Of a DNA stretch of 64,000 bases, positions 22,488-41,375 are shown piece after piece; position 1 is the stretch's first letter, and every line of letters begins with the position of its first letter. The translations under genes were made by a program, and so were the position numbers. The DNA is from Candidatus Zixiibacteriota bacterium (GTDB taxonomy: Bacteria; Zixibacteria; MSB-5A5; GN15; FEB-12): assembly GCA_024280215.1 (NCBI GenBank), contig JAJRQO010000013.1, positions 1 to 64,000 of the forward strand, given 5' to 3'. A model generated the notes under the pieces. The model did no database searches. It saw only the letters and a program-made list of their open reading frames with translations, and was not told the origin of the DNA.

Positions 22488-23336
22488 TTATATTTGGTCT
22501 GCCCTATACGAAGAGCGAACAAGAGGTCCTGATACTACTTTTTTAATCCCAGATTCCTCGGCAAACTGTTTCAATTTGACAAATTCATCAGGATGATAAT
22601 ACTTAATAACGGGGAGATGCTGTTTAGAAGGTGCAAGATATTGACCAATGGTTAAGACTGAAACATTGTGATGGTGCAAATCATCAAAAAGAATTTTGAG
22701 CTCATCAATCGTCTCACCAACCCCAACCATGATACCAGATTTGGTTTTAATCTCGGAGTTTTCGGAGACATATTTTAAAAGATTTAAAGAAGATTTATAA
22801 TCAGCTTGAGGTCTTACGACTGAATACCTTGATTTTACTGTTTCAAGATTATGATTAAAGACATCGGGAGTGCAATCTATTATCGTCTTAATCGCATCTG
22901 GAGCATGTAAAAAATCAGGTGTTAATAATTCGATTAGAATATTAGGGAGAATCTTGCGAATTTCTTTGACAGTTTTGCTAAACTGAATCGCTCCGCCATC
23001 TGTCAGGTCATCACGAGTTACAGAAGTTATGACAACATATTTTAACTTAAGCTTGGCAGACATTTCAGCTACTCTCCTCGGTTCAGTTGAGTCAACCATA
23101 TGTGGACGACCAGCTTCGATATCACAAAAACTGCAATTTCTGGTGCATTTAGACCCAAGAATCAAAAATGTTGCTGTTCCACGGTCAAAACATTCAGATC
23201 TGTTGGGACAGTTAGCAGCATGACAAACAGTCTGCAACCCATACTCTTTAATAAGCTGATTTACTTCTTTAAACTTCTCGCCCCCAACAGCTTTAATCTT
23301 GAGCCATACTGGTTTTCGTTCTCTATTTATATCCAT
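22488..23336 (-). CDS. lipA: Lipoyl synthase
   Basis: This 282-residue radical SAM enzyme inserts sulfur into octanoyl groups on lipoyl domains. Both iron-sulfur cluster motifs are present: the auxiliary CHAANCPNRSEC at about 37-48, and the radical SAM CTRNCSFC at about 63-70. The C-terminal RSSYRAD carries the conserved Ser that ligates the auxiliary cluster. Length is normal. No lipB or lipoate ligase gene is adjacent. The ribosome site is weak. Confidence 0.97.
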   Translation of the reverse strand: MDINRERKPVWLKIKAVGGEKFKEVNQLIKEYGLQTVCHAANCPNRSECFDRGTATFLILGSKCTRNCSFCDIEAGRPHMVDSTEPRRVAEMSAKLKLKYVVITSVTRDDLTDGGAIQFSKTVKEIRKILPNILIELLTPDFLHAPDAIKTIIDCTPDVFNHNLETVKSRYSVVRPQADYKSSLNLLKYVSENSEIKTKSGIMVGVGETIDELKILFDDLHHHNVSVLTIGQYLAPSKQHLPVIKYYHPDEFVKLKQFAEESGIKKVVSGPLVRSSYRADQI

Positions 23337-23470: not shown

Positions 23471-25576
23471 ATGACATATCGGAAATTATTTATTTTCCTC
23501 TGTATAGCACTTTTCTCTTTTGCTTCTTCAACCCTTGCACAAGGAAAAAGTAATATCTCTGTTACGAAAGTTAATAATACAACAATAAATGAAATCAGAA
23601 TTCGTCCATCATTATCTACTGCTGATACATGCATCCTTCGTCATGACCAAGGAATTGTATTTCGGATAAACGGCTGGGTTGTTGGAAATGAATTGTACAA
23701 AAGTTATCTAGACCCATCAGTTGGTTGTCCAACACCATATCCGTTTACTATCACTGAAATAAATATGCCGATGATTTTTAATGATTCAACTACTATGACT
23801 GTTTCAGTAGATGTAGAGCGTGTTGATTATTCAAATCCGAATTGTCCATTTCCTGATACTGTAATGTTAGGAATTTCATCAGCCTATACTATTACAATTC
23901 CAAATGCAGGAATTTATGAATTATGGATTCCGCTTGACCAACCAATCATAGTTAATGAACCATTTTTTGCGGGCTTTTTTATTGGTGAAATTACAAATCC
24001 ACTCTGTTCTGCTTCTGTGGTCATTGATGATAATTTAAGTACGATTTGCATGTCATATAATGTTTGGGATGATACCCTTGGATTTATTGATTTAAATAAT
24101 AATGAGTTTTTCAACTTCCCTGGACAATTAGTTCTTTATGCATCTGGTATAACAGGGGGAAACTCACTTGAACCAACACCACAAGTTTCTCTATTATCAC
24201 CAGCAATGAACGATAGTTTGTATAAAACAGTTGAAATTTGGGTAAATGAGAATTCAGGCTCTTCTATAATTGACTATGTTTCATTTGCATATGAATCTGG
24301 AGCAAATTATATAGAGATTGGAAGAGATTACGATGGCACTCAAGCATTTCGAGATGGAGTCACTACTGGTAATGGTGGTAACGGATATAGTTTGAATTGG
24401 GATTTTTCTACTGTTGCAGCTGTTACTGAAGGTATCTACAATATCAAAGTAACCGCTGTCGATACTCTCGGAAGAGAAGCATCGGAAATATTTTCAATCT
24501 TTTTAGAACCTACTCCTCCTATTGGTACGATTACATCACCAGTCAATGAAGCAGTTTTCTGTCCTTCATTTGATATATTGATGTCATCAAAAGATGAAAA
24601 CCTATCGACAATTAGTTTAGGATATAAACGAGCAGAACCAGATTTCTCAATAAACTCTCAGACACTACTTCTCTCAGATTTTGGAGATTTCTATTCACCA
24701 GCAGTCGCCGCAGCACTGGCTGTAGAAGTTTTATCTAATCGTGGATATTCATATATCATGCGAGATGGTTTTAATACTTTAACAGTTGCTCAGATGACAA
24801 CTCATCTTGCGGGGTTTATGAATATCGTACAAAACTCAGGAGCCTCTGATGAATCTATTTATCAAGGTTTAAAGACTTTTAACTCAACGGTTGGTAGTAC
24901 TATTGATTTAAACTATCAAAGATTTCCTAACTATTTAGATTTACGCAGTAAGATTGAGTTCAATGGTCAAGTAATGATGATTGGTCTTGGCGGTACAAGT
25001 AATTCTTGGTTGCTCATAGATGGATTCAATGGTAATAAATTATTAAATGGCTCATACCAAATTAAGATATCTAACCCATTAACAGCATCGATTGAAATAG
25101 TAGAACTTCGAAATCTCAACGTTGGTTGTGAAATTTTTTATGAAGGTGCTTGGCAACCTCTCGAAATCGCAATCACAATGTCAGTACCTGGATGGAATAA
25201 GGAATTAGTTAATTTTGGGGCTGATTTTAACAGAGCAGATGGCTGGTCTTTTAATTGGACTCCTCCAAATCTCTGGCAAAACTATTACTACTTTATTGAG
25301 ACCAAAGGATTTGATCAAACTGGAATGAGTGGATTCGATGTCACAATGCTTCAATATGACTGTACCCAATTTTATGCTGCTGGTGATTTCAACAATGACG
25401 GTGTAGCTGACATACTCGATTTAGATTTGCTTATAGTATATTTTACAACTCATGGTCCTCCACCAATCGGAGGTGATGCCAGAGCTGATACAAATTGTGA
25501 TGGATATTTAAATATTACAGATATTGTATACTTCGCAAACTTCATATTTGGTGCCGCAGCAACACCATGCTATTAA
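23471..25576 (+). CDS. Secreted dockerin-like protein
   Basis: This 701-residue protein has a signal peptide (cleavage near LAQ, about residue 23). Its first domain (about 35-230) resembles the repeated domain of the protein at 14.7 kb. An Ig-like or cadherin-like segment starts near TITSPVNEAVFCP (about 352), and a beta-rich region continues to about 635. The C-terminus has two calcium loops, DFNNDGVADILDLD and DTNCDGYLNITDI, of dockerin type, ending in Cys-Tyr. No catalytic motif is visible. It is monocistronic with its own terminator. A surface or matrix role is likely. Confidence 0.82.
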   Translation: MTYRKLFIFLCIALFSFASSTLAQGKSNISVTKVNNTTINEIRIRPSLSTADTCILRHDQGIVFRINGWVVGNELYKSYLDPSVGCPTPYPFTITEINMPMIFNDSTTMTVSVDVERVDYSNPNCPFPDTVMLGISSAYTITIPNAGIYELWIPLDQPIIVNEPFFAGFFIGEITNPLCSASVVIDDNLSTICMSYNVWDDTLGFIDLNNNEFFNFPGQLVLYASGITGGNSLEPTPQVSLLSPAMNDSLYKTVEIWVNENSGSSIIDYVSFAYESGANYIEIGRDYDGTQAFRDGVTTGNGGNGYSLNWDFSTVAAVTEGIYNIKVTAVDTLGREASEIFSIFLEPTPPIGTITSPVNEAVFCPSFDILMSSKDENLSTISLGYKRAEPDFSINSQTLLLSDFGDFYSPAVAAALAVEVLSNRGYSYIMRDGFNTLTVAQMTTHLAGFMNIVQNSGASDESIYQGLKTFNSTVGSTIDLNYQRFPNYLDLRSKIEFNGQVMMIGLGGTSNSWLLIDGFNGNKLLNGSYQIKISNPLTASIEIVELRNLNVGCEIFYEGAWQPLEIAITMSVPGWNKELVNFGADFNRADGWSFNWTPPNLWQNYYYFIETKGFDQTGMSGFDVTMLQYDCTQFYAAGDFNNDGVADILDLDLLIVYFTTHGPPPIGGDARADTNCDGYLNITDIVYFANFIFGAAATPCY

Positions 25577-25581
25577 AATGT

Positions 25582-25611
25582 AAAAAGCCCGCATAAAGCG
25601 GGCTTTTTTTT
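25582..25611. terminator. Bidirectional terminator at the left edge of the phage module
   Basis: GCCCGC, a five-base loop and GCGGGC, flanked by an A run on the left and a T run on the right, can terminate transcription from both sides. It ends the dockerin gene and the leftward phage gene run. The same stem (GCCCGC/GCGGGC) is reused at 41942-41975. Confidence 0.9.
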
Positions 25612-25912
25612 ACTTTCTACTGAGTGATGCAGAAATAGCTCTTCTTGCAATTTGAGGAGAGATATCGCAAATAGAAATCAAGGTGTCGATTGCGGTGTCA
25701 AGATGCTTCACCCAATCTTTTTCTGGATGTTTATTTTTTAAATCATCAGTGATTTCATCAGCAATAGTAGCGATGTATTGTGCATACTTTTTTCTTTTGC
25801 CAATTTGTAAAAAGGGTATCACATATTTATTGGTTATATGACCTACCAGTAACATACCTGCCGAACTGAGCAGCCCTAACCATGAAGTAGGGGTTGAAAA
25901 AAATGATTCCAT
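25610..25912 (-). CDS. Holin-like small membrane protein of the phage module
   Basis: This 100-residue protein has one clear membrane segment (about 12-34), then a basic stretch (GKRKKYAQ) and an amphipathic helical C-terminus. Size, layout and position at the end of the structural gene run resemble phage holins of the LLH type, but sequence-level support is weak. No endolysin gene is next to it. It starts 13 bases after the preceding gene's stop. Confidence 0.45.
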   Translation of the reverse strand: MESFFSTPTSWLGLLSSAGMLLVGHITNKYVIPFLQIGKRKKYAQYIATIADEITDDLKNKHPEKDWVKHLDTAIDTLISICDISPQIARRAISASLSRK

Positions 25913-25925
25913 AAAACCTCTCTTT

Positions 25926-27383
25926 TTACCAGCTGATTTGCCAGTTTGTTAATGTTGGGATTGTGATTCGTTGTCGCATTATTGTTCCATCTTTTTTTGC
26001 AATGGAAATTTCATACAACTGCCCTGACGGGTTGAGTGAATCCGATGGTATTAAATCTATATAGAAATATCCTAATGAATCTGAAAGAGTACTTACTTTG
26101 AATGGAGAGACTATAAGTGATCCAGCTCGGGCAACACCACCTGGTAATGATGCTGTAATAGTTGCTTTCGATTCTGGATTACCATTTATGTCATAAATAT
26201 AGGCATAGGCTCGGCATAAATTTGGTTGTGATGGTTGACCTGGATTGAAAGAATAACCAAATAACGAATCTTCTCCTGCTCCTGTAACAACAACAGTATC
26301 GAATGCATTAAATATATAGCCAGGTGAATTAGCAGCAATTAAATAGCTTCCTGGGTCAAGATTGAAGAGAAGTTCGCCATCGATTGTACTTCGGCCAGTT
26401 GCGATGAGAACTGTCTGTGATAAATTTCTTAAAGATGCTGAGACTGATGGAATCGGAACTACCAACGAAGTATCCATCAAAGTAATTTTATAAGCGTAAA
26501 TTCCCGAACCTGAACTATTGAGCGAATCTAAAATAACACTAACTGAATCTTGCAAGCTGGACAGCTCTTTTGCCTTAATATCATAACCTGTTCCTTTGCC
26601 AATAGCCACCAAACCATCACCGTTGCCAGCACTTCCCGCTTCTGATTTAATTCCAGAACCGTTCCCAGTATTTATTGCGTATAATCCATTGCCTCCTTGC
26701 GTAGATTCAAGATACATACCATGTCCACTTGAAGATTGTGAACTGGCATAGATAGCTGAACCATCAGGATTGCTGACAAAAAGTTGTTTTAACTCAAGTT
26801 GAAAATTAGATTCCCCATCAACAAGTGCTTCAAGTGAATCGGCAGCATTGCTATCATTTGAGATTGACAACACATTTGCTTTTGCATTTACAGAATCTGA
26901 TAATGAGTTAAACGTTGAACGGCTTGAAAGGAGAACGTCAATATTATCTAATCTTGCATTATAATCCGCACCACTATAGAGTTGAAAAGTTCCCGAATGC
27001 ACCGTTGTTAAGCCTAATGAAATATCTTTGACTGAGAGCAACCATGTATAAACTCCATTGGATGGACTACCTCCGTCAATATCAGCAATCGCAACTCCAT
27101 AGGAATAACAACTCCCTATGTTTGGAAATGATTGACTAACTATATTGGAATTATTTCCAAGAAAAGTTGTATTATACGCGACAGCACCTTCGGGATAAAA
27201 TGTTAATAGTCCAATTGAATCAGTCGTGGCAATATTAGTTAAACTTCCAAGTGAATCTAAAAGATAAAAGTTAAGGGTCAAACTATCTGATCCAGTAGCA
27301 CCTGAATTGTTGACAACATTTGCTTTTAAATTTAGACCGAACAGAAACAGATATAAAACAATTAAAAGAAGTTTCAATTTCAT
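25926..27383 (-). CDS. Exported adhesin- or fibre-like protein at the end of the phage module
   Basis: This 485-residue protein begins with a clear signal peptide (MKLKLLLIVLYLFLFG). The N-terminal beta-rich domain (about 25-150) is followed by a helical spacer and a Gly/Ser-rich repeat zone (about 205-270: GMYLESTQGGNGLYAINTG and similar), typical of fibre or beta-helix stalks. Two carboxypeptidase-regulatory-like beta sandwiches end the protein. It is in the same orientation as the phage genes and three bases from the upstream one. A signal peptide is unusual for a virion fibre, so it may be a host surface protein captured by the module or an exported factor. Confidence 0.6.
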   Translation of the reverse strand: MKLKLLLIVLYLFLFGLNLKANVVNNSGATGSDSLTLNFYLLDSLGSLTNIATTDSIGLLTFYPEGAVAYNTTFLGNNSNIVSQSFPNIGSCYSYGVAIADIDGGSPSNGVYTWLLSVKDISLGLTTVHSGTFQLYSGADYNARLDNIDVLLSSRSTFNSLSDSVNAKANVLSISNDSNAADSLEALVDGESNFQLELKQLFVSNPDGSAIYASSQSSSGHGMYLESTQGGNGLYAINTGNGSGIKSEAGSAGNGDGLVAIGKGTGYDIKAKELSSLQDSVSVILDSLNSSGSGIYAYKITLMDTSLVVPIPSVSASLRNLSQTVLIATGRSTIDGELLFNLDPGSYLIAANSPGYIFNAFDTVVVTGAGEDSLFGYSFNPGQPSQPNLCRAYAYIYDINGNPESKATITASLPGGVARAGSLIVSPFKVSTLSDSLGYFYIDLIPSDSLNPSGQLYEISIAKKDGTIMRQRITIPTLTNWQISW

Positions 27384-27385
27384 TT

Positions 27386-27994
27386 TTATTTCCTTCCAAT
27401 ACTTAAATTTCTTCGTCGATTTGCGACCATACTTCCGCCACCGCCACTTGCTGTATAGGTGATGTAGATAGAGTATTCGCTATTATTATTGACTGTCGCA
27501 CCACTTGCAAATGGATCATCTGTAGGAGATGCGTCGGATGCTCTGTATCCTGAAATTGTGTTCGCATCATTATGGATCCGAACAGAACTCGATCCAACAG
27601 TCTTGTTACGTACAAACAACCAATAGTCTGATGATGCGACGATTGTTCCTGAGATAGTTGCTGACCACCATTGGTAAGAACTCGAACTAATCACGATTTC
27701 ACTACTCTCACTAATAAGGGCATGGGGATAACCACCAGTATCATCATAGATTAAAACAACAATAGTATCTGTACCATTCCAGTTGTTATGACCGTTGATA
27801 TATGCGGTGGTGAGTATACCTCCAGAACTTGGTGTATACTTTGAGCCATACACATTAGTCCCTAAATTATTACCAATTGTATTAGATGTCGTACCAACTG
27901 TTGCATAACCAATATTATCAGCCAAAACAGTCGTACTCAGACAAAGTAAGATGAACAATGTTAGACATATACTAAGTATATATTTATTTTTCAT
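27386..27994 (-). CDS. Exported jelly-roll-like protein of the phage module
   Basis: This 202-residue protein has a signal peptide (cleavage near VLA, about residue 25). It has a single beta-rich domain with the pattern of extracellular jelly-roll modules (VVLIYDDTGGYP, DYWLFVRN), similar in style to the repeats in the 14.7-kb gene. The last residues (RRRNLSIGRK) are basic. It overlaps the upstream small gene by 11 bases, so it is cotranscribed with phage genes. Function unknown; a carbohydrate-binding or adhesion role is possible. Confidence 0.6.
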   Translation of the reverse strand: MKNKYILSICLTLFILLCLSTTVLADNIGYATVGTTSNTIGNNLGTNVYGSKYTPSSGGILTTAYINGHNNWNGTDTIVVLIYDDTGGYPHALISESSEIVISSSSYQWWSATISGTIVASSDYWLFVRNKTVGSSSVRIHNDANTISGYRASDASPTDDPFASGATVNNNSEYSIYITYTASGGGGSMVANRRRNLSIGRK

Positions 27995-28250
27995 TTTTAT
28001 CCTGAAGTTTAGTCTCGTTATTTTTTGCTTCTGATTTTAAATTATCATGTCTGATTTTATTTATCATCTTCCAGAATTTTTTCTGTTCAGAATTTTCAGG
28101 TGATAATTTTCTTCTTAATTCTATCATTTTAAGAAAGTCTCCTAATTTAACTTTTTCATCCCCATTTTTTTCAAGTTGTTTATAATAATTTTTTATAAGG
28201 TTATCGAGCAAATCAAGTTCCGATTGAATTTCCTTTTCGCTTTCATTCAA
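27984..28250 (-). CDS. Small charged helical protein in the phage module
   Basis: This 88-residue protein is rich in Glu and Lys, predicted helical, without Cys or membrane segments. It sits between phage structural genes and overlaps the next gene. I recognise no family; it could be a chaperone or minor structural protein. Confidence 0.6.
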   Translation of the reverse strand: MNESEKEIQSELDLLDNLIKNYYKQLEKNGDEKVKLGDFLKMIELRRKLSPENSEQKKFWKMINKIRHDNLKSEAKNNETKLQDKNEK

Positions 28251-28255
28251 TAATT

Positions 28256-28627
28256 TTACTCTCCCATCTCAACTATGTATAAGTCAACTGGAATTGGGGC
28301 TGTTGAACTGTCTGAGCGGACAATTTTAAACCCAAGACTTGATTCATCACCAACGATATATGCTCTATCATCTGTTTTTTGTTTTATAATCACTTTTGGG
28401 TTTTGTAAACTACTTGGTAAATTATTACCTTTATGATCAATAAGATCACTAAAAGAAATAACCTGACTACTATCTCCAATTGAAGTTGAATTAAACAATA
28501 CTGATAAAACAGCATTGACATTTTCAACAAGTAGATATTCAAAATCTCCCCATCCGATAGTTCCGTAGACATTCAGATTCGGGACATACCAACTTCTCTT
28601 TGTATTTGCTAAGGCATAACCTGTCAT
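28256..28627 (-). CDS. Phage module protein, unknown (possible minor structural)
   Basis: This 123-residue protein is beta-rich with no signal peptide. It is tightly packed between a connector-like gene and a small helical gene. Its size and place fit a tail-completion or head-fibre protein, but there is no diagnostic motif. Confidence 0.6.
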   Translation of the reverse strand: MTGYALANTKRSWYVPNLNVYGTIGWGDFEYLLVENVNAVLSVLFNSTSIGDSSQVISFSDLIDHKGNNLPSSLQNPKVIIKQKTDDRAYIVGDESSLGFKIVRSDSSTAPIPVDLYIVEMGE

Positions 28628-28639
28628 AAGAACTCCTTT

Positions 28640-29104
28640 TTAACTATGGGTTGGTGGTTGTATATGTTTGAGTGGCGACTTAAATGACTCTATAAGCTTT
28701 TCTGAACGACTTAAGTAAAGCTCGGCAAGTTTTATCCATGATGTTGCATTGCTATCTTTTTTGTTAGAACCGATCAGCTCACGCATCGCAGATGAACGAC
28801 AGATTATTTCTAATGCTCGATAGGTTGCGGCAGTTTGTAACACTAAGTCTGCACCAAACTGTTTGTCGGGATCAACCTGCTTTTCAATAATTGCATTTGC
28901 TTCAATGACAGCATTATTTAAAATTTCATCGGTATAATTATTGTAAATCGGTTCATAATCGATATAGAGAGATTCACCAAGTTGAATAGCTCCTGAAGGA
29001 ATTTTTTGAATCTCACCAGAGTTATAATCTATTCGATAATCAGTATCTTCTACATAGACGGTATATGGCAGAAAGAAAAATGTCACCGTATCTCCAATGG
29101 ACAA
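28640..29104 (-). CDS. Phage head-tail connector-like protein
   Basis: This 154-residue protein has a beta N-terminus (YTVYVEDTDYRIDYNSGEI) and a helical C-terminal half with AATYRALEIICRSSAMRELI. The latter resembles the helical core of phage connector or adaptor proteins that count residues per subunit such as gp6-like families. It lies downstream of the capsid gene, as connectors do. Assignment rests on layout and fold impression, not on a diagnostic motif. Confidence 0.5.
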   Translation of the reverse strand: MSIGDTVTFFFLPYTVYVEDTDYRIDYNSGEIQKIPSGAIQLGESLYIDYEPIYNNYTDEILNNAVIEANAIIEKQVDPDKQFGADLVLQTAATYRALEIICRSSAMRELIGSNKKDSNATSWIKLAELYLSRSEKLIESFKSPLKHIQPPTHS

Positions 29105-29140
29105 TTGCCCATTGTCTTTTAAAGTGCATATTGCATTTTT

Positions 29141-29452
29141 TTAGTCTATAACAAAGTCGATATTCTCTTTATAGATTTCTCCAAGAGATGAATCAGATGC
29201 ACAGACAAGAGAACCCCGTACTATTGGTGTCGTATGAATGGTAAATGATGTTTCTGAAACTGAGAACAATTTTGTTGTTGGAAGATAATTTGTAATAGTT
29301 TTTACAATGACAGAATTATCCAGAATCGGACCATTAAATATTTTCATATATGCAACAGTATCACAGATAAGTAATTGGTCCAGTATATAGTCTGTCATTG
29401 GTTGACTATATTCTATATGGCTTCTTATTAAATCAACATTTGTATATGACAT
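29141..29452 (-). CDS. Small phage module protein, unknown
   Basis: This 103-residue protein has a helical N-terminus (YTNVDLIRSHIEYSQPM) and a beta-rich rest. The N-terminal pattern recalls short connector or gp6-like proteins, and the final DFVID matches the style of the neighbouring 154-residue protein, in which a similar YRIDY segment lies near the N-terminus. It ends 36 bases before that gene and starts one base past the stop of the propeller gene. Confidence 0.5.
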   Translation of the reverse strand: MSYTNVDLIRSHIEYSQPMTDYILDQLLICDTVAYMKIFNGPILDNSVIVKTITNYLPTTKLFSVSETSFTIHTTPIVRGSLVCASDSSLGEIYKENIDFVID

Positions 29453-29453
29453 T

Positions 29454-30866
29454 CTACCTCCGAACCGATACTGATTGAATTAGTGTAATTGACCTAAGCT
29501 GGGTTCCGATAGGTGCTAAAGTAAATGCTGAGTTTACTTCAATTTTTATCCAATAACGACTGACGCCATTGATTATATTTTTTTGCCAGTCTTGCGGAGA
29601 TGAATCAAAGTCATCCCAGAGTAAAACATCTTGAGCGGACGCGTCAAGATTATAAACACCGCTTGATGGTACAAATGACTTCCAATTGCTTCCATCATAA
29701 TATGAATAAGTAACGCTCCCACCTACTCCCGCAGTTGATAGCAACATATGTAGAAATCTAAATTTCACGTCAGACCCACAATACAATTTATCTGCAACTG
29801 ATGAACATAATTGAGAAGAAGCTGAATGAAACAAATCAGCAGATATTGAATTAGCTGCTTCCGTAGTTTTCTCTTCATAGGTTGATGAATTAATATCATA
29901 AAGCATTACTGAATCAAAAACTGCTGCTCTTTTTTCTAAAGTAGCAGGAGTTGAAAAAGTTCCAGTTTGTCTATTGGCTTGTTTGAGTTGAAATTGATTA
30001 GTATTAAACTCAGAGAGATATAATATTACTGGGATATTGTTCACAAGAGTCATTTGTGGGAAAAATGATTCAGAGGAATCCAAAACAGTAATAGGACTCC
30101 AATTTTTACCATCATACTCCCTATAGTTTAACTGATTATCGTCATAGACTACTCCGACAAATCCCCCAGATAATACTATCGCATCAAAATGTTCATCTAT
30201 ATTTGTACTTGATGCGATGGTGTATTCTGTTGTCCAACTACCACCACTTAGAAGACGTGATTGTTGCTTAACAGCATTCCAATCGGTGACATAGACAACA
30301 AATAAATTATTATCTGATGCCATGATTTTGGGAATTACCATTGAATATCCATTTGCAATAATTTCACCATTATCTGATGGTGAAGTTCCCCATGTTACAG
30401 CATCATCATCAGACGTTTTCACATGTAAATCAAAGACAGAACTATTTAATCTTGAAAAACTAACGTAAAACACTCCATTTGAATCGATTGTTACTGAAGG
30501 AGTGTTTGTAACACCAGCATTATAAACAAATACTTTAGAACCGATAGTCCATCCTGTGTCACTGATTGACAGTTTTACTGATACAAGATAGTTCGTTGTT
30601 ATTTCACAATAAATCAGATAGACATCACCTGTTGGACTCATAGCGACATCAATCGCATCATTGGCAGAGTCTGTTACTATTGAAGTAAGTGTACTCCAAC
30701 TATCATACGGCGAGCTTGAAAAGCTATATTTGATTTCATTGTCTGATGTTTTATAGACTGCTATCATTCTTCCCGCATATTTACCTGAAAGAACTTTCAA
30801 TAATTTTTTCCCAGTTGGTGCCCCAAAACCACCAATAGCAGTTGTTTCGGATAATTTAGTTTGCAT
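29454..30866 (-). CDS. Beta-propeller (BNR-like) protein with baseplate-type C-terminal domain
   Basis: This 470-residue protein has no signal peptide. Residues about 10-310 form repeats of short beta strands with SxDxGxTW-like turns (for example TSDDDAVTWGTSP), the style of sialidase-like propellers. Residues about 360-460 include VTYSYYDGSNWKSF and a late YWIKIEV, a pattern seen in phage tail-fibre and baseplate proteins. It probably binds a surface carbohydrate as a spike or fibre. It lies next to the capsid gene and is transcribed with it. Confidence 0.55.
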   Translation of the reverse strand: MQTKLSETTAIGGFGAPTGKKLLKVLSGKYAGRMIAVYKTSDNEIKYSFSSSPYDSWSTLTSIVTDSANDAIDVAMSPTGDVYLIYCEITTNYLVSVKLSISDTGWTIGSKVFVYNAGVTNTPSVTIDSNGVFYVSFSRLNSSVFDLHVKTSDDDAVTWGTSPSDNGEIIANGYSMVIPKIMASDNNLFVVYVTDWNAVKQQSRLLSGGSWTTEYTIASSTNIDEHFDAIVLSGGFVGVVYDDNQLNYREYDGKNWSPITVLDSSESFFPQMTLVNNIPVILYLSEFNTNQFQLKQANRQTGTFSTPATLEKRAAVFDSVMLYDINSSTYEEKTTEAANSISADLFHSASSQLCSSVADKLYCGSDVKFRFLHMLLSTAGVGGSVTYSYYDGSNWKSFVPSSGVYNLDASAQDVLLWDDFDSSPQDWQKNIINGVSRYWIKIEVNSAFTLAPIGTQLRSITLIQSVSVRR

Positions 30867-30917
30867 ATTCCTCCTAAATTTACCCAGACTCTTTTAACGA
30901 GCCTGGGCATAATAGTT

Positions 30918-32018
30918 TTAGTAGCTTGTATCAAGTACTATAGCTGCTTGTTTTAATATCTTGGCATAGGTAACAGATTCGGAAATCACTGCTTCCTCAA
31001 ATCGTTGATCGATTACTTTATCGTATTCAATCATGAGTGGTTGGGTGATAACTTCTTCTACAGCAAATCTATTATCCAAACCAATAATTAAATCAGTAGG
31101 GACTTCATCTGAACGAACAAGACCTGCTCCCAATGGTGAGAATAGTTCACCAGAGTTTTGGAATCTATAACCAGCCATTGGGTCTTTAAATTCAGATAAC
31201 GTCAAAATTGATTTCAGTTGATTTACATGACAAATAATTGTGTTCATTTCAAATGGGGAGAAATTCGACCACAGGGTAATCAAGTCATCATAAGTCAATG
31301 TACCTGTGAGAGCAGTGTTGACGGTCGATGCGGCATTATTGTTGCCGTCACCATTGATAATACAATCAACCAATAGACCAATTTTATCCGTTTGAATTTT
31401 AAAACCAATATACCAGAGAAGAACTCTGAATTGCGAAGTTGTGCGATAACGCAGAGCTTTGTAACTTGTCTTCAAAGCTAAGCCATAATCGACAACATTG
31501 ACGGCATGGTTCTGTTCGGTCACCATGAGTTGTGGAACTTCAGAACCATCACCGATAGGACGCATTGAAAACTTAGACGTGTCATCAGTGTTGATATAAA
31601 AAGGAGTATAGGAATTGCTTGCGATTGTCGTAGAGTTTGCAATTAGTTTGCTCAACTCAGGACGCATCGACATACCCTTTTTTACTTCACGAAGCATAAA
31701 CTCTGGAAGCAAAGCAGGTGCTTGTTGATAAAACTGTTCAACAGTAGTAGGTGTCTTACCAGCGAGTTTCACTCCCGAAAGTACAAGTTGACGTTCAAAG
31801 GCATCAAGCGGAGAACCAACCACTGATGGATCATATTCATCTGACTCAAGTAGTTCTGTAAGAGTTAAACCTTTTGTGTCCGCTTCAGCATACAAATCTT
31901 TTGAGATTTCAAATGATGCTGCCCGACTAAGGTCAATTGATGCGGAGTTTAGAAAAGAATCATCGTTATGTAATTGATTCATGATAAATGGTGAATTCAT
32001 AAATTTATTAAAATCCAT
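30918..32018 (-). CDS. Major capsid protein (HK97-fold type)
   Basis: This 366-residue protein follows the decoration protein gene, the normal position for the capsid gene. It has the flow of HK97-type capsids: a helical N-terminal part (1-110), an SKLIANSTTIASNSYTPFY region, a spine-helix-like segment around ALKTSYKALRYRT and a final beta segment (DQRFEEAVISESVTYAKIL). No exact signature motif exists, so the call relies on composition, size and neighbours. The ribosome site GAAAGG is good. Confidence 0.75.
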   Translation of the reverse strand: MDFNKFMNSPFIMNQLHNDDSFLNSASIDLSRAASFEISKDLYAEADTKGLTLTELLESDEYDPSVVGSPLDAFERQLVLSGVKLAGKTPTTVEQFYQQAPALLPEFMLREVKKGMSMRPELSKLIANSTTIASNSYTPFYINTDDTSKFSMRPIGDGSEVPQLMVTEQNHAVNVVDYGLALKTSYKALRYRTTSQFRVLLWYIGFKIQTDKIGLLVDCIINGDGNNNAASTVNTALTGTLTYDDLITLWSNFSPFEMNTIICHVNQLKSILTLSEFKDPMAGYRFQNSGELFSPLGAGLVRSDEVPTDLIIGLDNRFAVEEVITQPLMIEYDKVIDQRFEEAVISESVTYAKILKQAAIVLDTSY

Positions 32019-32031
32019 TATAGAACCTTTC

Positions 32032-32451
32032 TTAGTTTAGTAAAATGATACAATCAGTTGTACCGTTAACGTCCAGCACAGTACCACGCGAAACATTTCC
32101 GCCAGCAGGGTCAGATGCAACTGTTGGAGCCTGCTTTACAGTACCATTACCACCACCAACAACTTGATTACCAATAGTTGGGTAAGTTGTTGAAGTAGCC
32201 AAACGACACACACCGCCGATTTGTACTGTTGCGACTCGTTCGCCATCATCATTGTCGGTGAGGGTAAGAGCGATTAGTTTTCCAAGAAGTTGAGCGTCTG
32301 ATGCCAAAGGACCGACTTCGCTATTGCCAGAGACAGCGACTGGTTCACCAATATTGGTATCTTTGAGATCATCAATACTGGCTGTTTGTGAAATTTTAAA
32401 TGTAGCTAAGACTGGTGCTACTGTTTCCAAATTATGATTTCTTACTGACAT
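32032..32451 (-). CDS. Capsid decoration/cement-like protein
   Basis: This 139-residue protein is beta-rich and Gly/Thr-rich without Cys-rich motifs or a signal peptide. Its position directly before the capsid gene and its pattern (alternating VATVQIGGVCRLA with TTYPTIGNQVVG) match small trimeric head-stabilising proteins. It ends 13 bases before the capsid start codon. Confidence 0.6.
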   Translation of the reverse strand: MSVRNHNLETVAPVLATFKISQTASIDDLKDTNIGEPVAVSGNSEVGPLASDAQLLGKLIALTLTDNDDGERVATVQIGGVCRLATSTTYPTIGNQVVGGGNGTVKQAPTVASDPAGGNVSRGTVLDVNGTTDCIILLN

Positions 32452-32521
32452 AAATTCCTCTTAAGTTTTTTATCTATTTATGAGGGAGAGCTCCCACAAC
32501 TAAGGGATGAAAATCCCGCAA

Positions 32522-32950
32522 TTATTTACAAGATGAATAATTTTTATTTCGCTTCTTTTGTTGGAGCATGCTTTGAAATGTCGATGGAAAGGCGGTGTGA
32601 AATCGTGCTTCTGTTTTGTTATATTGTGCTATCAACTGCTCAGGATTCATTTCTGATAATTCTTGTAACGATTGCTCGACATCTTTTAGCTTAGGTCTTT
32701 TGCTGGCGACAACATGCATTGCTTTTTCCATTGTATTGATTTTTTGTAAAATATTTTCTTTGAAAGTTAGAAGTTCGCTCTCTAACGTTTCATAGCTTTC
32801 ATAGAGAGTTTGAATTCGGTCAAGTTGGACAATGAGCTTGTCAAAATCAATAAGTTCTAATTTTTCAGATTTGAGTTGTTCTCGAACAGATAACAAATTT
32901 ACTATTTCTTGTTTAATTGTTTCCAACTTTTGCTCCTTCTTTATTTTCAA
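32522..32950 (-). CDS. Coiled-coil protein, possible scaffold
   Basis: This 142-residue protein is almost entirely heptad-patterned helix, rich in Glu, Lys, Leu and Gln. A coiled-coil protein between the protease and the capsid gene is the usual place for a scaffolding protein, which is the best guess. It overlaps the upstream membrane protein gene by 38 bases in another frame. Confidence 0.5.
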   Translation of the reverse strand: MKIKKEQKLETIKQEIVNLLSVREQLKSEKLELIDFDKLIVQLDRIQTLYESYETLESELLTFKENILQKINTMEKAMHVVASKRPKLKDVEQSLQELSEMNPEQLIAQYNKTEARFHTAFPSTFQSMLQQKKRNKNYSSCK

Positions 32951-33224
32951 GTAAAAACTCTATCTTACTCAATCGCTTGTCTATATCTTTCGAGAAAGTA
33001 TAGAATTGTTCTTTCGATAAAACTCCTTGGTTTAGGATATACTCAATATTTGTAAGTTTTTTGTCCAACTGCTCGACAGTTTTCATTTCTGCCTTGGCTG
33101 CTAATTCTACTTTGATAGATTGAATTGATAAAAAGTATGAAGTGGCTACCCCTAAAATTATCATAATAAATTTTATCATCGGAGTGTTTAGCATTATAAG
33201 ACCTTTCTCTTCATTTTTTTTCAT
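32913..33224 (-). CDS. Membrane-anchored coiled-coil protein of the phage module
   Basis: This 103-residue protein has one membrane segment (about 16-32) and a long coiled coil (about 40-95, VEQLDKKLTNIEYIL). The ribosome site AAGGAAACT supports the first Met. Layout resembles spanin- or holin-like phage proteins, yet it sits among head genes. It is divergent from the lipoprotein gene to the right, separated by about 70 bases holding both promoters. Confidence 0.5.
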   Translation of the reverse strand: MKKNEEKGLIMLNTPMIKFIMIILGVATSYFLSIQSIKVELAAKAEMKTVEQLDKKLTNIEYILNQGVLSKEQFYTFSKDIDKRLSKIEFLLENKEGAKVGNN

Positions 33225-33296
33225 AGTTTCCTTTTTTTAGTTGACGACAGATTATGATTTCACATCCTTTTTGTATGAAAACTGAAAGGACTTACG

Positions 33297-33992
33297 ATGA
33301 AATATTTTCTTATATGTTGTATGGTGTTATCACTCGCTCTTTTTACAGGCTGTGAAGATTCGAACAATATTACACAAAACCAACAACAGGTTGACGGACT
33401 ATCTTTGCTTGGATTAGTTGATGGAAGAACTATGGTATATATTCAAACTGATACTGCTATCTCATACGACCCGATTGCTATTACGACACATGACACAACC
33501 CTTTCTGTATTAATCACTGGTTCTGGAAGTGACTGGATTATTCACAATGGCTCGAACAAAATTATCAATTTAAAAACAGCCTCCTCTTCAATTATTCAAA
33601 ATGGATACTGGAAAAAAATCAATGGGCAAGATTCACTTATTTATTTTGCCTCTCCACCACTGATTATGGAGCGGACATTGAGCAGCACTCTGGCTTGGGA
33701 CTACTACACCCCTTTCTACAACCCAGATTCAGTAGCTATTTATTTTTCATTCTACCATGCCAACTTTGGGTTCAAAGTAAGTAAAGAATATGTTGGGATA
33801 GAATCGATCATTACTCCTGCTGGTGAATTTAACAGCTACCGTTTTGATCTTCAGATATTCACGACAAATTTTGGCAATGATCCTATCGCTACATCGTCTG
33901 AATACTATGTACCTAACATTGGTTTAGTGAAACAAGATTTCAACATTGGTGCTTTGAGAAGATCTCTTATATTGGTCAGTTACACTAATTAG
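33297..33992 (+). CDS. Predicted lipoprotein inserted in the phage module
   Basis: This 231-residue protein has a signal peptide with lipobox LFTGC (acylated Cys near 19). The rest is beta-rich with no recognised family. It runs opposite to the phage genes and its last eight bases overlap the tail of the head-protease gene. It could be a host cargo (moron) gene or a lineage-specific lipoprotein. No signal of phage morphogenesis is visible. Confidence 0.75.
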   Translation: MKYFLICCMVLSLALFTGCEDSNNITQNQQQVDGLSLLGLVDGRTMVYIQTDTAISYDPIAITTHDTTLSVLITGSGSDWIIHNGSNKIINLKTASSSIIQNGYWKKINGQDSLIYFASPPLIMERTLSSTLAWDYYTPFYNPDSVAIYFSFYHANFGFKVSKEYVGIESIITPAGEFNSYRFDLQIFTTNFGNDPIATSSEYYVPNIGLVKQDFNIGALRRSLILVSYTN

Positions 33993-35457
33993 AGTTATAG
34001 AATAGAAATTTTTCTTTTTGATGAATACACATAGGTTGTAAAGTAAAGTTTTTGATATTTGCTCCAGATAATGATACTTGCATTGAATCATTATCTTCTC
34101 TTAGCACACGCATAAAGCCGTTATCTAATTGAGAACTTTTTAGTGAACTTGCTTCAACAGATTCCAACTTTTCAGCAATAAATTTATTCCCACATAAAAA
34201 CTTCTGTTTTAAAAATCGACGAACGAGAAAATGTTTTTCACCAGTCTTTGTATAAAGAGACAAGACCAAGTCAGAGCCTTTAGAGCTGATTGAATATCTT
34301 GGATTATTTTCTGTTTGGTTTGTATTTTTTAAAACTGTAGGTTTATAGTATAGTCCTAAATTATTTAAGGGAAGTTCATCAGCAGAAAAGATTCGGATAC
34401 CTTCTTTTGTCATAATTGATAGGGCAACTGTCTGTATATCATTTTTGAGGGCTACTTTATAACGTATGTTTTTTATATTTTGATAATTAGATTTCATCAA
34501 TTCATAATTAGGGAAAAGTCGTAGTTCTACTCTTTTTACTTTGCATTGTTCACCACACAAAAATTTTGTTAACTCATCTTTTGAGCATCTTTCTTTACCT
34601 CGATAGCCGATTAACTGTCCAAAGTGGTTTGACAAATTCTTTGGATACTCTTTAAACAACTTACTTACAATCTGTTGTGATATATTTAAATTATCTAACA
34701 GATGGATTTCTAATGAAGTGTTTGTTGAATTAAGAACCACATCAATACCTTCATACCGTGGTGTTATTAAATAAGTTGTTTTATTATCAAGTACATCAAG
34801 CGAACGTATTTCAGCTATCTGATTTGCAGTCGAAAGATTTCTTTTTATGACAAGTTCGTTAGATATTGAAGTATTTGGAATCGCCCCTCTATAAACCATT
34901 GATGTCTCCAAAACTTTATCAATATCTTTATAGTAAAAAAAGCAACTCTGATTCTTACTGTTTATGGTATATATGCCGAAAGGTTCATGGCGACATGTGC
35001 GAATATCTGCTTTACAAATTGAACATTCAGGAGTTAAAAAGGTAAAGCCGATTGAACATTCTTTGATAATTCCTCCATCAATATTTTTTTGTAAATCGTC
35101 AGCGTTGTCGGAAGTCTTCATCCAATAAAAATAACTCTTTACCCAATGCATATTTTCTTTAAACAGAACTTCTGCATAAAAATTACGACCAATTGGTAGT
35201 TGGTCTTTCTTATGACCTACTAAAACTGGCGAGTCAATAATTTTATCTTTTATTTTATATAATTCTTCAAGAGGAAATTTCCCTCCACAACTATTTAACT
35301 CTTCAGAAACAATATACATACATCTGATATGCACATCATCAGCAGTTAATTTTTCTGACGGCATAATATTGTTATTTAATATTTCGATTAAGTTATCAAT
35401 CTTACCAATTGATGTATCACTTAAAGTTGCTTGTAGTTTACCAATGTTTGAATTCAT
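33985..35457 (-). CDS. Phage head maturation protease with a long C-terminal extension
   Basis: This protein is 490 residues. The first ~215 resemble prohead proteases: a His in VLVGHKKDQLPIGR near 80, a nucleophile Ser in ECSIGF near 134, then a Cys/His cluster (CSICKADIRTCRH) and VLETSMVYRGAIPN. Such proteases trim scaffold and capsid during head assembly. Normal family members are about 200-250 residues; the remaining 275 here, beta-rich with several Cys, match no family I know. They could be a scaffold fusion, a DNA-binding part or a separate function. Confidence 0.65.
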   Translation of the reverse strand: MNSNIGKLQATLSDTSIGKIDNLIEILNNNIMPSEKLTADDVHIRCMYIVSEELNSCGGKFPLEELYKIKDKIIDSPVLVGHKKDQLPIGRNFYAEVLFKENMHWVKSYFYWMKTSDNADDLQKNIDGGIIKECSIGFTFLTPECSICKADIRTCRHEPFGIYTINSKNQSCFFYYKDIDKVLETSMVYRGAIPNTSISNELVIKRNLSTANQIAEIRSLDVLDNKTTYLITPRYEGIDVVLNSTNTSLEIHLLDNLNISQQIVSKLFKEYPKNLSNHFGQLIGYRGKERCSKDELTKFLCGEQCKVKRVELRLFPNYELMKSNYQNIKNIRYKVALKNDIQTVALSIMTKEGIRIFSADELPLNNLGLYYKPTVLKNTNQTENNPRYSISSKGSDLVLSLYTKTGEKHFLVRRFLKQKFLCGNKFIAEKLESVEASSLKSSQLDNGFMRVLREDNDSMQVSLSGANIKNFTLQPMCIHQKEKFLFYNSN

Positions 35458-35636
35458 AAAATCTCCTTTTTAAAAGATGTATAAAAGCTGAACAGTTATA
35501 ATTTTAGTGCATTCATCTATCTTTTTTGCATTAGACGTGCAACAGATATCATAACCGCATGAACACTATCTCATTTTGAAATCGAAAAACCGTCCTATTT
35601 TACTCCATTATTGATGTTTACTCTTATGTATTAAAG

Positions 35637-35652
35637 TGGCACAGCCTTTGCT
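35637..35652 (+). promoter_or_regulatory. Sigma-54 promoter of the first PEP-CTERM gene
   Basis: The sequence tggcacagcctttgct matches the RpoN consensus TGGCACRNNNNTTGCW in every defined position, with GG and GC at the required ten-base spacing. Its -12 GC lies about 47 bases before the ATG at 35698. An enhancer-binding activator would be needed; one of that class is encoded at 3.2-4.6 kb. Confidence 0.85.
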
Positions 35653-35697
35653 TTAATTCTAACCGACAGGCTTGATAAATTCAAACAAGGAATAAAG

Positions 35698-36039: not shown

Positions 36040-36066
36040 AAATTCCCCTTACTTATCCCTTATTCG

Positions 36067-36101
36067 CACCTTCTTAATCTATACTTTAAGAAGGTGTTTT
36101 T
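36067..36101 (+). terminator. Terminator after the first PEP-CTERM gene
   Basis: CACCTTCTTAA pairs with TTAAGAAGGTG over a short loop and is followed by five T. Placed between the PEP-CTERM stop and the terminase stop, it closes the rightward unit. On the minus strand it lacks an equally strong T run. Confidence 0.8.
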
Positions 36102-37428
36102 ATATTCGCCCAACTTTTGGAGTAATCACAGAATAACTCTTCCTATATAGTGACCAAAGTGCTAAAGCAAGTGCCATAATCGAATCACATTCATTATTTT
36201 TATCCCACCGAGCTTCTCGCATCTCATCTTCAAATGCCCAAATTTTGCCATCTCCATCTGGTAGTTCCCATCTTTGATACCAAATTTTATTCTGCTCGTG
36301 AAAAAACTCGACATTGGTAAGCAACTCTGCTTTCACAGACTCTGTAAATATAACTGGGGTCGGATTGTAATCTCTGAGTTGCTCTACAACCACATCACCC
36401 AACCCAGTAGCATCAACAAACAATCGACCTGGATATTTATGCTGCCTTACTTTAATTTTCTGAATAATATCTTTCCAGTCAAACATTTTAAACCGCTCAA
36501 CAGAAACTATCAATGCTGTTCCGTTTTTCACTTGAACGGTGATACCTACTGTTGCTGTTTTCTTACGTGCTAAATCCCATCCACTAATGTAGTATGGTTC
36601 TTTCTCAGCTCTAAATTCTTCTACTTTTTCAGCATGCCCATGTATAGCAGAATCAACATGAACCCCTTTTATAATTTCACCCCCCGAATCAACAAACTGC
36701 CCCATAATATTTTGCTGAACTCTTCGCTCTGTAAAAGCCTTGACGCGCTCATCTAAAGCATGCGCTGAGATAAAACTATTTTCCCTACTATCACCAGATT
36801 GAAAATATCCTTTTCTCTTTTTTTGTGAAATTTCAAGCATCCTCCTGTAGAACCAATTTTTCCCATTAGGCGTCGAAATCAAATCAAGCATCCCTTCACG
36901 ATCAGCAAGCCTCATCTGGATGACTTCTTCAACGACATACTCTGGAGCTGACTCAAAGGCTACTTCATCAAAAATAAAATAGTCATAGTCATTCCCCAAA
37001 AGATACTCTCCTCTATTTTGGGTTGACCTCGCTTCAATAGTTGCCCCATTAGACAATACCAATTTAGGAAATGGCGTCTTAGTAATTGTCAAAAGCAGAG
37101 GTTCTAAGATTTTTGATTCACGAGCTAAGGAAACAACCAGTTGAAAAATAATATTTGCTTGATCCTGAGTTATCGATGCGGTCACTACACGATATTTTTT
37201 TCGTAAATCGAATTTGATATCTCTGATACGAAAAAATGCACGGTACAAGATTTTAATTGCCGAAACAAATGACTTCCCCCATCTATTCCCTGTCACCAGC
37301 ATGTTTTCTTTTGTAGAAGAATTATTAAGCCATTTAACCTGACCTTGGTGTAGACTAACCCCTAAAACCTCCTTGGCAAAATACTCAGGTTTTTGAAATG
37401 CAAGATTCCAATCTATTGCTCCTGTCAT
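36100..37428 (-). CDS. Phage terminase large subunit
   Basis: This 442-residue protein is the DNA-packaging motor. The ATPase has Walker A GNRWGKS near residue 46 and Walker B YFIFDEVAF near 150. The C-terminal nuclease domain has acidic residues in ISGWDLARKK near 280, LFVDATGLGD near 340 and ECDSIMALALAL near 415, the expected three sites. All are intact, so it may be active. It begins two bases past the portal stop. No small terminase gene was recognised. Confidence 0.92.
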   Translation of the reverse strand: MTGAIDWNLAFQKPEYFAKEVLGVSLHQGQVKWLNNSSTKENMLVTGNRWGKSFVSAIKILYRAFFRIRDIKFDLRKKYRVVTASITQDQANIIFQLVVSLARESKILEPLLLTITKTPFPKLVLSNGATIEARSTQNRGEYLLGNDYDYFIFDEVAFESAPEYVVEEVIQMRLADREGMLDLISTPNGKNWFYRRMLEISQKKRKGYFQSGDSRENSFISAHALDERVKAFTERRVQQNIMGQFVDSGGEIIKGVHVDSAIHGHAEKVEEFRAEKEPYYISGWDLARKKTATVGITVQVKNGTALIVSVERFKMFDWKDIIQKIKVRQHKYPGRLFVDATGLGDVVVEQLRDYNPTPVIFTESVKAELLTNVEFFHEQNKIWYQRWELPDGDGKIWAFEDEMREARWDKNNECDSIMALALALWSLYRKSYSVITPKVGRI

Positions 37429-37430
37429 AA

Positions 37431-38669
37431 TTATCGTAAAAGCTTTTCTACTTGTAGAGTGGCAGCATCTTTTTCAAGCAGCCCCGCATTATATAGCTTG
37501 ATAAGTGAATCTATCTCTTGTGAACGTACCGATGAAATCTCGCTTGCTTGATAGGCAAAACTATTATCAAATTGATATGAACATTTCTCATTTATGCCAT
37601 GGAGTGCCAGTTCAAGATTTCCGAGCCATTCTAAAAAACAGATTACTTCTGCTTGTACAGAGTTGACTGACCGCATGACCACATCAAACTTAAATGATGC
37701 CCATGTTGTAGTTGAGCCAAATGAATAGCCGAGTAAGAATGGTGCCAAATTTGTTCCAGCACAAATTTCTTCTATCATTGAACGATGATTCATAAACCAA
37801 CTGTTTGTAACAGACTTTACATTTTCAGGTCCTACATGATTAATTGTAACATTATCCCAAGTCACTGGATTCTCATCAATGTCGCATGATTTAATCATCG
37901 AAACAGTTGAATCAAAATAAGAATTGATTCTGTCTATATATGCTGTATCTGCTTCACCACTCATTCGCTCTGGCGGTGTAATTTGCACATGCAATCGGTG
38001 GAAGCCAGAGTTATGACTTGTACGACGCATATCATCTACTAATTGTTGTTCTATATATGAGACGAACGGCACTGTATGTAAAATTGATTTACCTAACCGA
38101 TTTTTGCTATCGGCATTAAATGGAATCGCATAAAAATCATCTCGATCTAAGACAATTTTCTTCTCTTGAAGTTCAAGATAGAAGCTATTCTTCTCATCTA
38201 ATTGAATATCTGATGCTGAAATAGGTAAAAATCTATCTATGGAACTACCATCTTTTTCAAGCAGGACAAACCCAGAATACAGACCATCACGATAGTATGT
38301 CCGAAATAATTCCGAGACAAATGATACCATTGAGCCTGATTTTCCAATAGAATTGTAATATAATTTTTCTGATAATCGCTTGAGAATTTCCTGACCAGAA
38401 TCAGATTTGACATAATAATTCCCTGGAGCAGCCGATAGTCTAACCCAAGTTTCAAGACATGCATGTACGACAGGAACAGTATCTGATAAAAATTGGTATA
38501 ACTGATATTTGAATCGACCATTTTGAAAATCGGCAATAGAATAATCTAAAATTGAATCCAATGATTTTGGATTCCCCTTTTTTAAAACATTGTGAGATTT
38601 TAATGTTACATTATTTCTGAGATAAGTGGAATTAATTGCGGACTTCTCTTGTTTACTAAAAAAATTCAT
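37431..38669 (-). CDS. Phage portal protein
   Basis: This protein is 412 residues from the Met that follows a strong AAAGGAG site. The stem and wing regions are suggested by the helical core (RDGLYSGFVLLEK, AIPFNADSKNRLGKSIL) and by the segment HRSMIEEICAGTNLAPFLLGYSFGSTTTWASF, which is characteristic of Mu-gp29/SPP1-like portals, where a helix near the end lines the channel. Portals form the dodecameric entrance to the capsid. It is the first gene of the leftward head module. A TTG start six codons upstream is possible but less likely. Confidence 0.82.
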   Translation of the reverse strand: MNFFSKQEKSAINSTYLRNNVTLKSHNVLKKGNPKSLDSILDYSIADFQNGRFKYQLYQFLSDTVPVVHACLETWVRLSAAPGNYYVKSDSGQEILKRLSEKLYYNSIGKSGSMVSFVSELFRTYYRDGLYSGFVLLEKDGSSIDRFLPISASDIQLDEKNSFYLELQEKKIVLDRDDFYAIPFNADSKNRLGKSILHTVPFVSYIEQQLVDDMRRTSHNSGFHRLHVQITPPERMSGEADTAYIDRINSYFDSTVSMIKSCDIDENPVTWDNVTINHVGPENVKSVTNSWFMNHRSMIEEICAGTNLAPFLLGYSFGSTTTWASFKFDVVMRSVNSVQAEVICFLEWLGNLELALHGINEKCSYQFDNSFAYQASEISSVRSQEIDSLIKLYNAGLLEKDAATLQVEKLLR

Positions 38670-38866
38670 AAATTCTCCTTTTAACAAGATTAAGTAATAT
38701 TTTTTCCATTTATTTTGTAGAAAAAATGTAACTCTTTATTACGTAAGGAGCTTAAAAGTACAATTTGTGCATATTATTGCTCTTATCTCAAGTCGTTTTC
38801 TTGCTCAAAATATATTATCTGCTTGTCTTTCAACATCATACGAATACATAAAAATGGTCTACTTTA

Positions 38867-39724: not shown

Positions 39725-39835
39725 CTGCCTTTTTCTCTCAATTTTTTCAAAAATTTGACTTGTACCCCTCAATAAATTCCTCTATATTTGTCTCACAATA
39801 ATGTAGCCTTAATAGAAATATCCGATACTAATACA

Positions 39836-41344: not shown

Positions 41345-41375
41345 GATGTACAATAATAAAAACAATGGAGAACCA

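Follow-up and report, generated by a model that had tools for sequence, protein, structure and literature searches.

Why should two genes in a run of phage-type head genes encode proteins with signal peptides, and do these proteins serve a particle or the cell that carries them? The question is raised by the genes for SP485 and SP202 in a 64,000-nucleotide stretch of Zixibacterial DNA (hereafter the window), which lies on a contig of 110,396 bases in a genome of 3.03 Mb (42 contigs, 96% complete). The original prediction regarded both as exported, fibre-like or adhesin-like products, translationally linked to a phage gene run, and proposed that they may decorate the carrier cell.

A head module with an exported pair

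The module spans approximately 25610-38687, from the holin-like end to the portal end (Table 1). The exported pair lies near one end of it, as had been predicted; the run takes in this full extent and not the end alone.

Table 1. Genes of the head module and its chromosomal neighbours in the window.
Feature	Position	Strand	Remarks
Portal protein	37431..38687	-	phrog_3753
Large terminase	36100..37428	-	ATPase and nuclease motifs intact, invariant across relatives
prot490, 490 aa	33985..35457	-	Linked through gut relatives to XkdF-type head maturation protease (N-terminal part)
TM103, 103 aa	32913..33224	-	N-terminal membrane anchor and coiled-coil-like tail; 43/53 loci
cc142, 142 aa	32522..32950	-	Conserved, coiled-coil-like
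Decoration-type virion protein, 139 aa	32032..32451	-	phrog_4588
Major capsid protein	30918..32018	-	phrog_3922, E 9.3e-64
Beta-propeller with C-terminal beta domain (BNR_2), 470 aa	29454..30866	-	Candidate short-tail nozzle
Adaptor-like gene (g103+g154)	28640..29452	-	~270 aa in relatives; broken in window
g123, 123 aa, conserved module protein	28256..28627	-	49/53 loci
g88, 88 aa, conserved module protein	27984..28250	-	
SP202, 202 aa, exported, hypervariable slot	27386..27994	-	Signal peptide; Arg-rich tail NRRRNLSIGRK
SP485, 485 aa, exported, fibre-like	25926..27383	-	Signal peptide, N-terminal domain, Gly-rich repeat/helical middle, two C-terminal beta domains
Holin-like membrane protein, 100 aa	25610..25912	-	phrog_6918 holin in 4/11 family members
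Dockerin protein, neighbour past exported end	23471-25576	+	
Radical SAM, neighbour past exported end	22488-23336	-	
TPR protein, neighbour past portal end	39788-41344	+	
195-aa exported-type protein, neighbour past portal end	41346-41933	+	

The family profile of prot490 matched a gut protein, which itself scored 23.9 bits against the XkdF protease model (cut-off 24). Position and a helical C-terminal half suggest that the adaptor-like gene encodes a head-tail adaptor, its profile match being weak; searched by sequence against the PDB, the adaptor profile gave no matches and g123 chance matches alone. The propeller found its best structural match in lectins (Photorhabdus PLL4, Z 27.9) and also matched viral propellers, with a P22 gp10-type protein ranked 16th. 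Since propeller folds match many things, we do not claim it as a tail nozzle. The holin-like identity of the 100-residue protein is putative, given its weak homology. Within the module, we recognised neither a small terminase nor a tape measure nor an endolysin, and no tail gene, of siphovirus type or other, beyond the adaptor and propeller.

Two host-type genes lie on the plus strand inside the head module, at 33297-33992 (a DUF3108-like lipoprotein) and 35698-36039 (a PEP-CTERM protein), and recur in 8 and 3 relatives' loci, respectively. TM103 is a membrane-anchored, coiled-coil-like protein amid the head genes in 43 of 53 loci.

Both exported proteins begin with textbook Sec signals, MKLKLLLIVLYLFLFGLNLKA with cleavage before N in SP485 and MKNKYILSICLTLFILLCLSTTVLA with cleavage before D in SP202 (sites placed by eye). 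The SP202 gene overlaps its upstream neighbour by 11 bases and the SP485 gene starts 2 bases past the SP202 stop; in relatives, the two exported genes are at most 40 nt apart in 39 of 46 loci. The close linkage noted originally is confirmed. Signal peptides were called with a strict home-made rule in loci fetched from relatives of the window module. They were found in 41 of 48 SP485 homologues (35 at the longest-ORF start) and in 37 of the 46 genes that occupy the slot before SP485. By the same rule, no signal peptide was present in the portal (0/33), terminase (0/34), capsid (0/51), propeller (0/48), decoration (0/50) or adaptor (0/50) proteins, nor in g88 and cc142, while prot490 (1/48), g123 (2/49) and the holin-like protein (3/28) were rarely flagged and TM103 often (35/43), as expected for a membrane anchor. 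A lenient rule, which called 45 of 48 SP485 homologues, was discarded as unspecific because it flagged 33 of 50 decoration proteins at some start. The clear signal peptides first noted in the two genes are confirmed, with start misreading excluded as a general cause, and from the signals in homologues across the class we infer export by the Sec route.

SP485 family members occur in 48 of the 53 fetched loci. Two of the other five (G112 and G092) end at a contig edge, one is the other half of the split G043 module and one (G138) lies outside the class, leaving only G129 without SP485 on the sequence present. SP485 is single copy in the window genome, and in most loci it has a fixed position between the adaptor-side genes and the holin-like gene. 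The exported pair is an integral part of the head module.

Inheritance of the module across the class

Searched with the capsid protein, 112 of 146 genomes gave a match, 111 of them among the class's 132 and 1 among the 14 from elsewhere, with one copy per genome apart from fragmented copies. The capsid family model found it in 121 of 386 genomes, that is 111/132 in the class and 10/254 outside, and in 0/14 named controls. When the class is limited to genomes with a completeness of 90% or more and a contamination of 5% or less, 73 of 78 carry the capsid, and three of the five misses have the SP485 family, itself found in 117 of 146 genomes, every one inside the class. Named capsid relatives are mostly MAGs of Candidatus Zixiibacteriota, and identity over near-full-length matches drops with rank, from ~82-91% within the genus to ~53-65% at class level. 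A capsid of 90% identity also appears in a MAG labelled Flavobacteriaceae, on a probably misbinned Zixibacterial contig (JAKISU010000154).

Trees were built with FastTree, with rpoB as the sole host marker. Capsid and rpoB correlate with a Mantel r of 0.918 (n=47), against a best value of 0.254 in 999 permutations; their trees have 33 of 44 splits in common and 1 strong contradiction, and in the capsid tree all eight multi-member families tested, as well as the order, are monophyletic. Agreement with rpoB was similar for the portal (r 0.912, n 29) and the terminase (r 0.869, n 31) and weaker for SP485 (r 0.719, n 46), which showed 8 strongly supported conflicts.

In the dN/dS analysis we gave weight to congeneric pairs with unsaturated dS, most other pairs being near saturation. 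For G014/G036, where dS is ~0.25-0.6 for most genes, the dN/dS values were 0.006/0.44 for the capsid, 0.051/0.49 for the terminase and 0.255/0.87 for SP485, and dN was 0.040 for the portal, 0.044 for the propeller, 0.059 for the adaptor and 0.032 for the holin-like gene. For G103/G118 they were 0.005/0.26 (capsid) and 0.084/0.44 (SP485). Ratios were higher in G089/G096, with pN/pS up to 0.81 (g123). Judged by these substitution rates, the capsid and the terminase are under purifying selection. Aligned to solved terminases, the terminase family has Walker A in 31/31 members, the Walker B Asp-Glu in 34/34 and the nuclease aspartates in 33/33, 33/33 and 32/32; assuming that these residues have their usual roles, their invariance points to DNA packaging.

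Gene order is conserved around the capsid, and the chromosomal neighbours are kept as well (dockerin in 25 of 53 loci, TPR in 19, radical SAM and the 195-aa gene in 17 each); nearly all of these loci belong to four families of one order. A 31% match to an HD-domain response regulator on the other side in one genome (G074) was left out of the synteny. We probed for the terminase in 19 genomes, picked since the terminase or other pieces had not been seen near the capsid, and found it in 16, in most of them outside the fetched capsid stretch. It lies on the same contig at ~60 kb or less in four genomes (G009, G081, G089, G122) and at a greater distance or on a different contig in the remaining ones; in five single-contig genomes, it is ~90 kb (G121) to 1.3 Mb (G129) away from the capsid or exported half. 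The single-contig genomes G030 and G050 have the exported half and the terminase with no capsid match, and G043, also a single contig, has the capsid as two overlapping pieces 0.6 Mb apart; these rearrangements may be real or may be assembly faults. No tyrosine integrase match was found on the window's contig, and five were found on other contigs of the genome.

Among 50,697 phage records there was no close relative of the capsid or of SP485; six distant capsid records (25-36% identity) were found, five of which are unannotated gut records. A search of IMG/VR for the capsid by short-peptide patterns, which detect close relatives only, found none. Two gut relatives have a small terminase (PF03592). 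The records MT835952 and MT835508 match the module profiles for portal, protease and capsid. Both carry the label 'Bacteriophage sp.' and come from human faeces, yet look like bacterial chromosome fragments; as bacterial chromosomal genes flank their short head module, we did not treat them as phages. In two loci outside the class, inspected by eye, a capsid relative lies near genes with signal-like N-termini (5359-5997 and 6372-7166 in L170; 5647-6102 and 2740-4815 in L175), and in a third (L174) no such genes adjoin the head genes. L170 and L175 suggest that the exported arrangement is not confined to Zixibacteria.

Taken together, the sequence data make a strong case for a domesticated, vertically inherited host module present across the class. 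Of the phage gene run originally described, the phage-type head genes stand and the phage does not.

The window copy is split in its adaptor-like gene by an in-frame TAA (29141-29143), as seen against three congeners; elsewhere the terminase is broken in G003 and SP485, by a TAG, in G002. Leaving SP485 out of the count, 7 breaks occur in 6 of the 54 loci examined. Recoding of stops in the genus was considered and dropped, the breaks being few and the stops mixed with frameshifts. In the window genome DprA is present and ComEC has no match, an absence that we rejected as a class trait since ComEC is present in 121 of the 132 genomes of the class. Because of the adaptor stop and the missing ComEC match, the window copy may be decaying towards loss; among alphaproteobacteria, gene transfer agents (GTAs) have been described that were lost or became pseudogenes (PMC10883770).

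SP485 and the hypervariable slot protein

In the family alignment, SP485 begins with the signal and an N-terminal domain; the middle, made of repeats or helices, varies, and the C-terminal half is conserved. The Gly-rich repeats noted originally are real and lie at about residues 215-272. Comparison of predicted structures with phage fibres and host adhesins, the check proposed at the outset, returned matches of both kinds. The SP485 model has low confidence overall (mean pLDDT 55.6) and very low confidence in the middle, its usable part being 293-485, where two beta domains are predicted at ~295-380 and 389-485. Their top PDB matches are CnaB and pilin-type surface-protein folds, and the viral matches include several phage tail fibres. 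The domain at 295-380 matches CnaB/carboxypeptidase-regulatory domains (8bdw, Z 11.8, 85 aligned), a likeness of fold only.

The domain at 389-485 superposes on the 125-residue chain a of 8KEG, the neck-anchoring domain of gp82 from cyanophage A-1(L) (Z 10.4, rmsd 2.1, 90 aligned). This domain (residues 1-125) attaches the neck fibre to the neck ring, and its pilin-like fold is remarked on by the authors in the account of the structure (PMC10966104). As the fold is pilin-like too, the predicted match is only suggestive; besides, the domain is N-terminal in gp82 and C-terminal in SP485, A-1(L) is a myophage, and the two proteins have no sequence match. Searched by sequence against the PDB, the SP485 profile gave three matches, all with E values of 0.037 or worse and taken as chance, and neither SP485 (CarboxypepD_reg, 18.5 bits against a cut-off of 32.3) nor SP202 could be assigned with confidence to a Pfam family.

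A search of IMG/VR found one relative of the SP485 repeat region, on the tailed-phage contig IMGVR_UViG_3300030616_000036, with 45% identity across SP485 residues 234-277. Unlike SP485, this 359-residue fibre starts with MQSINLFRNPNGDFELIF and has no signal peptide; its adjoining genes look tail-type by eye. The likeness to fibres and adhesins that had been read from the sequence is thus supported by this repeat relative and by the tail-fibre, CnaB and neck-fibre anchor folds. Since the phage relative starts without a signal, the simplest history for SP485 would be a virion fibre that later gained a signal peptide.

The proteins in the slot before SP485 range from 134 to 1194 residues and fall into 13 separate groups. 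Only 139 of 1035 slot pairs are alike, compared with 627 of 1035 pairs for SP485 and 946 of 946 for the capsid. An Arg-rich triplet is found within the last 50 residues of 28 of the 46 slot proteins, where shuffling predicts 0.56, and often sits between a Gly/Ser/Pro linker and hydrophobic residues; SP202 of the window, which is outside the 46, also has such a tail. Elsewhere, the tail occurs in 39 of 630 other ORFs and in 11 of 120 other signal-bearing ORFs, the latter mostly PEP-CTERM proteins and SP485 relatives. A home-made rule found a C-terminal membrane-like stretch in 0/46 slot proteins, and a lipobox-like pattern was seen in none of these and in 1 of 48 SP485 homologues. The Arg tail may be a common docking tail on exchangeable bodies.

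Function of the module and alternative explanations

The number of known GTAs is small, and those studied in depth come mostly from alphaproteobacteria. GTAs have been defined by six features and are outlined as phage-derived head and packaging genes that are fixed in host chromosomes, inherited and selected, sometimes at several loci (PMC9662315). The three features testable from sequence are all seen in the module: similarity of the capsid, portal, terminase and decoration genes to caudoviricete proteins (PHROG/Pfam), full endogenisation (conserved neighbours, a distant terminase and no tyrosine integrase match on the contig) and co-diversification with the host (the capsid-rpoB correlation). 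The other three features of the definition are a cargo of mostly random host DNA, an element too large for its own particle and delivery of DNA to other cells. The scattered insertion sites and host-discordant trees of an active or recent prophage were not found. A GTA-like function is therefore likely on sequence grounds, and the ComEC of most class genomes is compatible with DNA delivery to other cells.

The module resembles RcGTA-type GTAs in having chromosomal, host-inherited and selected head and packaging genes of phage origin, sometimes at several loci; it differs from them in its phylum, in having no recognised siphovirus-type tail genes, in its two Sec-exported fibre proteins and in being known from genes alone. 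By description rather than by sequence comparison, it also resembles the FpGTA of Faecalibacterium, portrayed as a compact podovirus-like set of terminase, portal, head proteins and capsid, with a holin and more than one locus, and unlike the module in its possible small terminase and in a separate operon for fibre, receptor-binding and lysis genes (PMC12946183). In searches of the open PMC literature, we found among the papers listed no prior report of this Zixibacterial module, whether as a GTA, a prophage or a phage capsid, nor any of a signal peptide combined with a tail fibre.

Considering all the above results, we favour, with a probability of roughly 55%, a domesticated tailed-phage head module that probably works as a podovirus-like GTA, with the exported pair as its recognition or adhesion part. 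Such a module would build a DNA-packaging capsid and may use the holin-like protein, on its weak homology, for release; phage autonomy would have been lost, and the last two structural genes would yield fibre-like proteins exported from the cytoplasm through Sec. SP485 would be the constant part and the slot protein the hypervariable part with its common Arg-rich C-terminal tail. A phage fibre with an acquired signal peptide would be held outside the inner membrane, while capsids would assemble inside. Recognition or adhesion is the likely role of the exported fibres wherever they act; as for the site, we slightly prefer the particle to the cell. An encounter of the pair with the particle, at the envelope or following lysis, is a tentative proposal to which we give somewhat less than even odds, and a lasting exposure of the pair on the cell surface is an alternative that we take seriously while doubting it. 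A GTA of split compartments, whose capsids are filled in the cytoplasm and joined at the envelope or after lysis by a Sec-secreted constant fibre and an Arg-tagged exchangeable recognition protein, seems rather unlikely in all its parts. To our knowledge, there is no known route for mounting a Sec-exported protein on a cytoplasm-made capsid.

Several observations weigh against the GTA reading, which here relies on genes: the small terminase, tape measure and endolysin that were not recognised, the adaptor stop and missing ComEC match of the window genome, the pilin-like character of the neck-fibre fold, the 85-residue CnaB matches that score as high as the neck-fibre match, the weaker agreement of the SP485 tree with rpoB, and a holin assignment that draws on 4 of 11 family members. 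The exported pair might instead be surface adhesins or receptors of the carrier cell, which would hold donor and recipient together or receive particles and never join one. The Sec signals of the SP485 family and the CnaB and pilin-type folds among its top matches would suit such a role, while the related repeats in a tailed-phage fibre and the fixed place of SP485 in most loci argue against it, and the scarcity of any recognisable membrane anchor or lipobox may do so; we regard it as doubtful, if a serious contender. Two options stay live, decoration of the carrier cell, as first proposed, and mounting on a particle. The suggested motive of blocking superinfection would lose force without a phage.

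A domesticated capsid put to a different use, such as a DNA store, a killing particle or an envelope-linked compartment, with the exported pair as its surface part, would account for the unusually many envelope-directed proteins (two exported, one holin-like, and TM103), for the recognised tail ending at adaptor and propeller and for the ComEC without a match in the window genome. We consider it improbable, as the invariant ATPase and nuclease motifs of the terminase point to DNA packaging and ComEC is widespread in the class. Much less probable still is an ordinary prophage, or recent remnants of one, carrying two host-like morons: the phage head genes, the broken gene in the window and the breaks in other loci would fit it, whereas the class-wide single copy, the rpoB-like tree, the dN/dS values, the kept neighbours, a terminase far off on the same chromosome, the lack of a tyrosine integrase match on the contig and the lack of a close capsid relative among phage records all speak against it. 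An artefactual origin of the signal peptides, through the choice of start codon, has a negligible chance. A few homologues have uncertain starts and 7 of 48 fail the strict rule, but 41 keep the signal where the head proteins have none, which excludes a misread start as its source for the family.

Carried by nearly all good-quality genomes of an entire uncultured class, the capsid module would be one of the most ancient and widely distributed of domesticated phage systems. Fibres exported by Sec would challenge the picture of how virion parts reach a particle, and split-compartment assembly, if true, would let recognition be swapped freely with the capsid left untouched.
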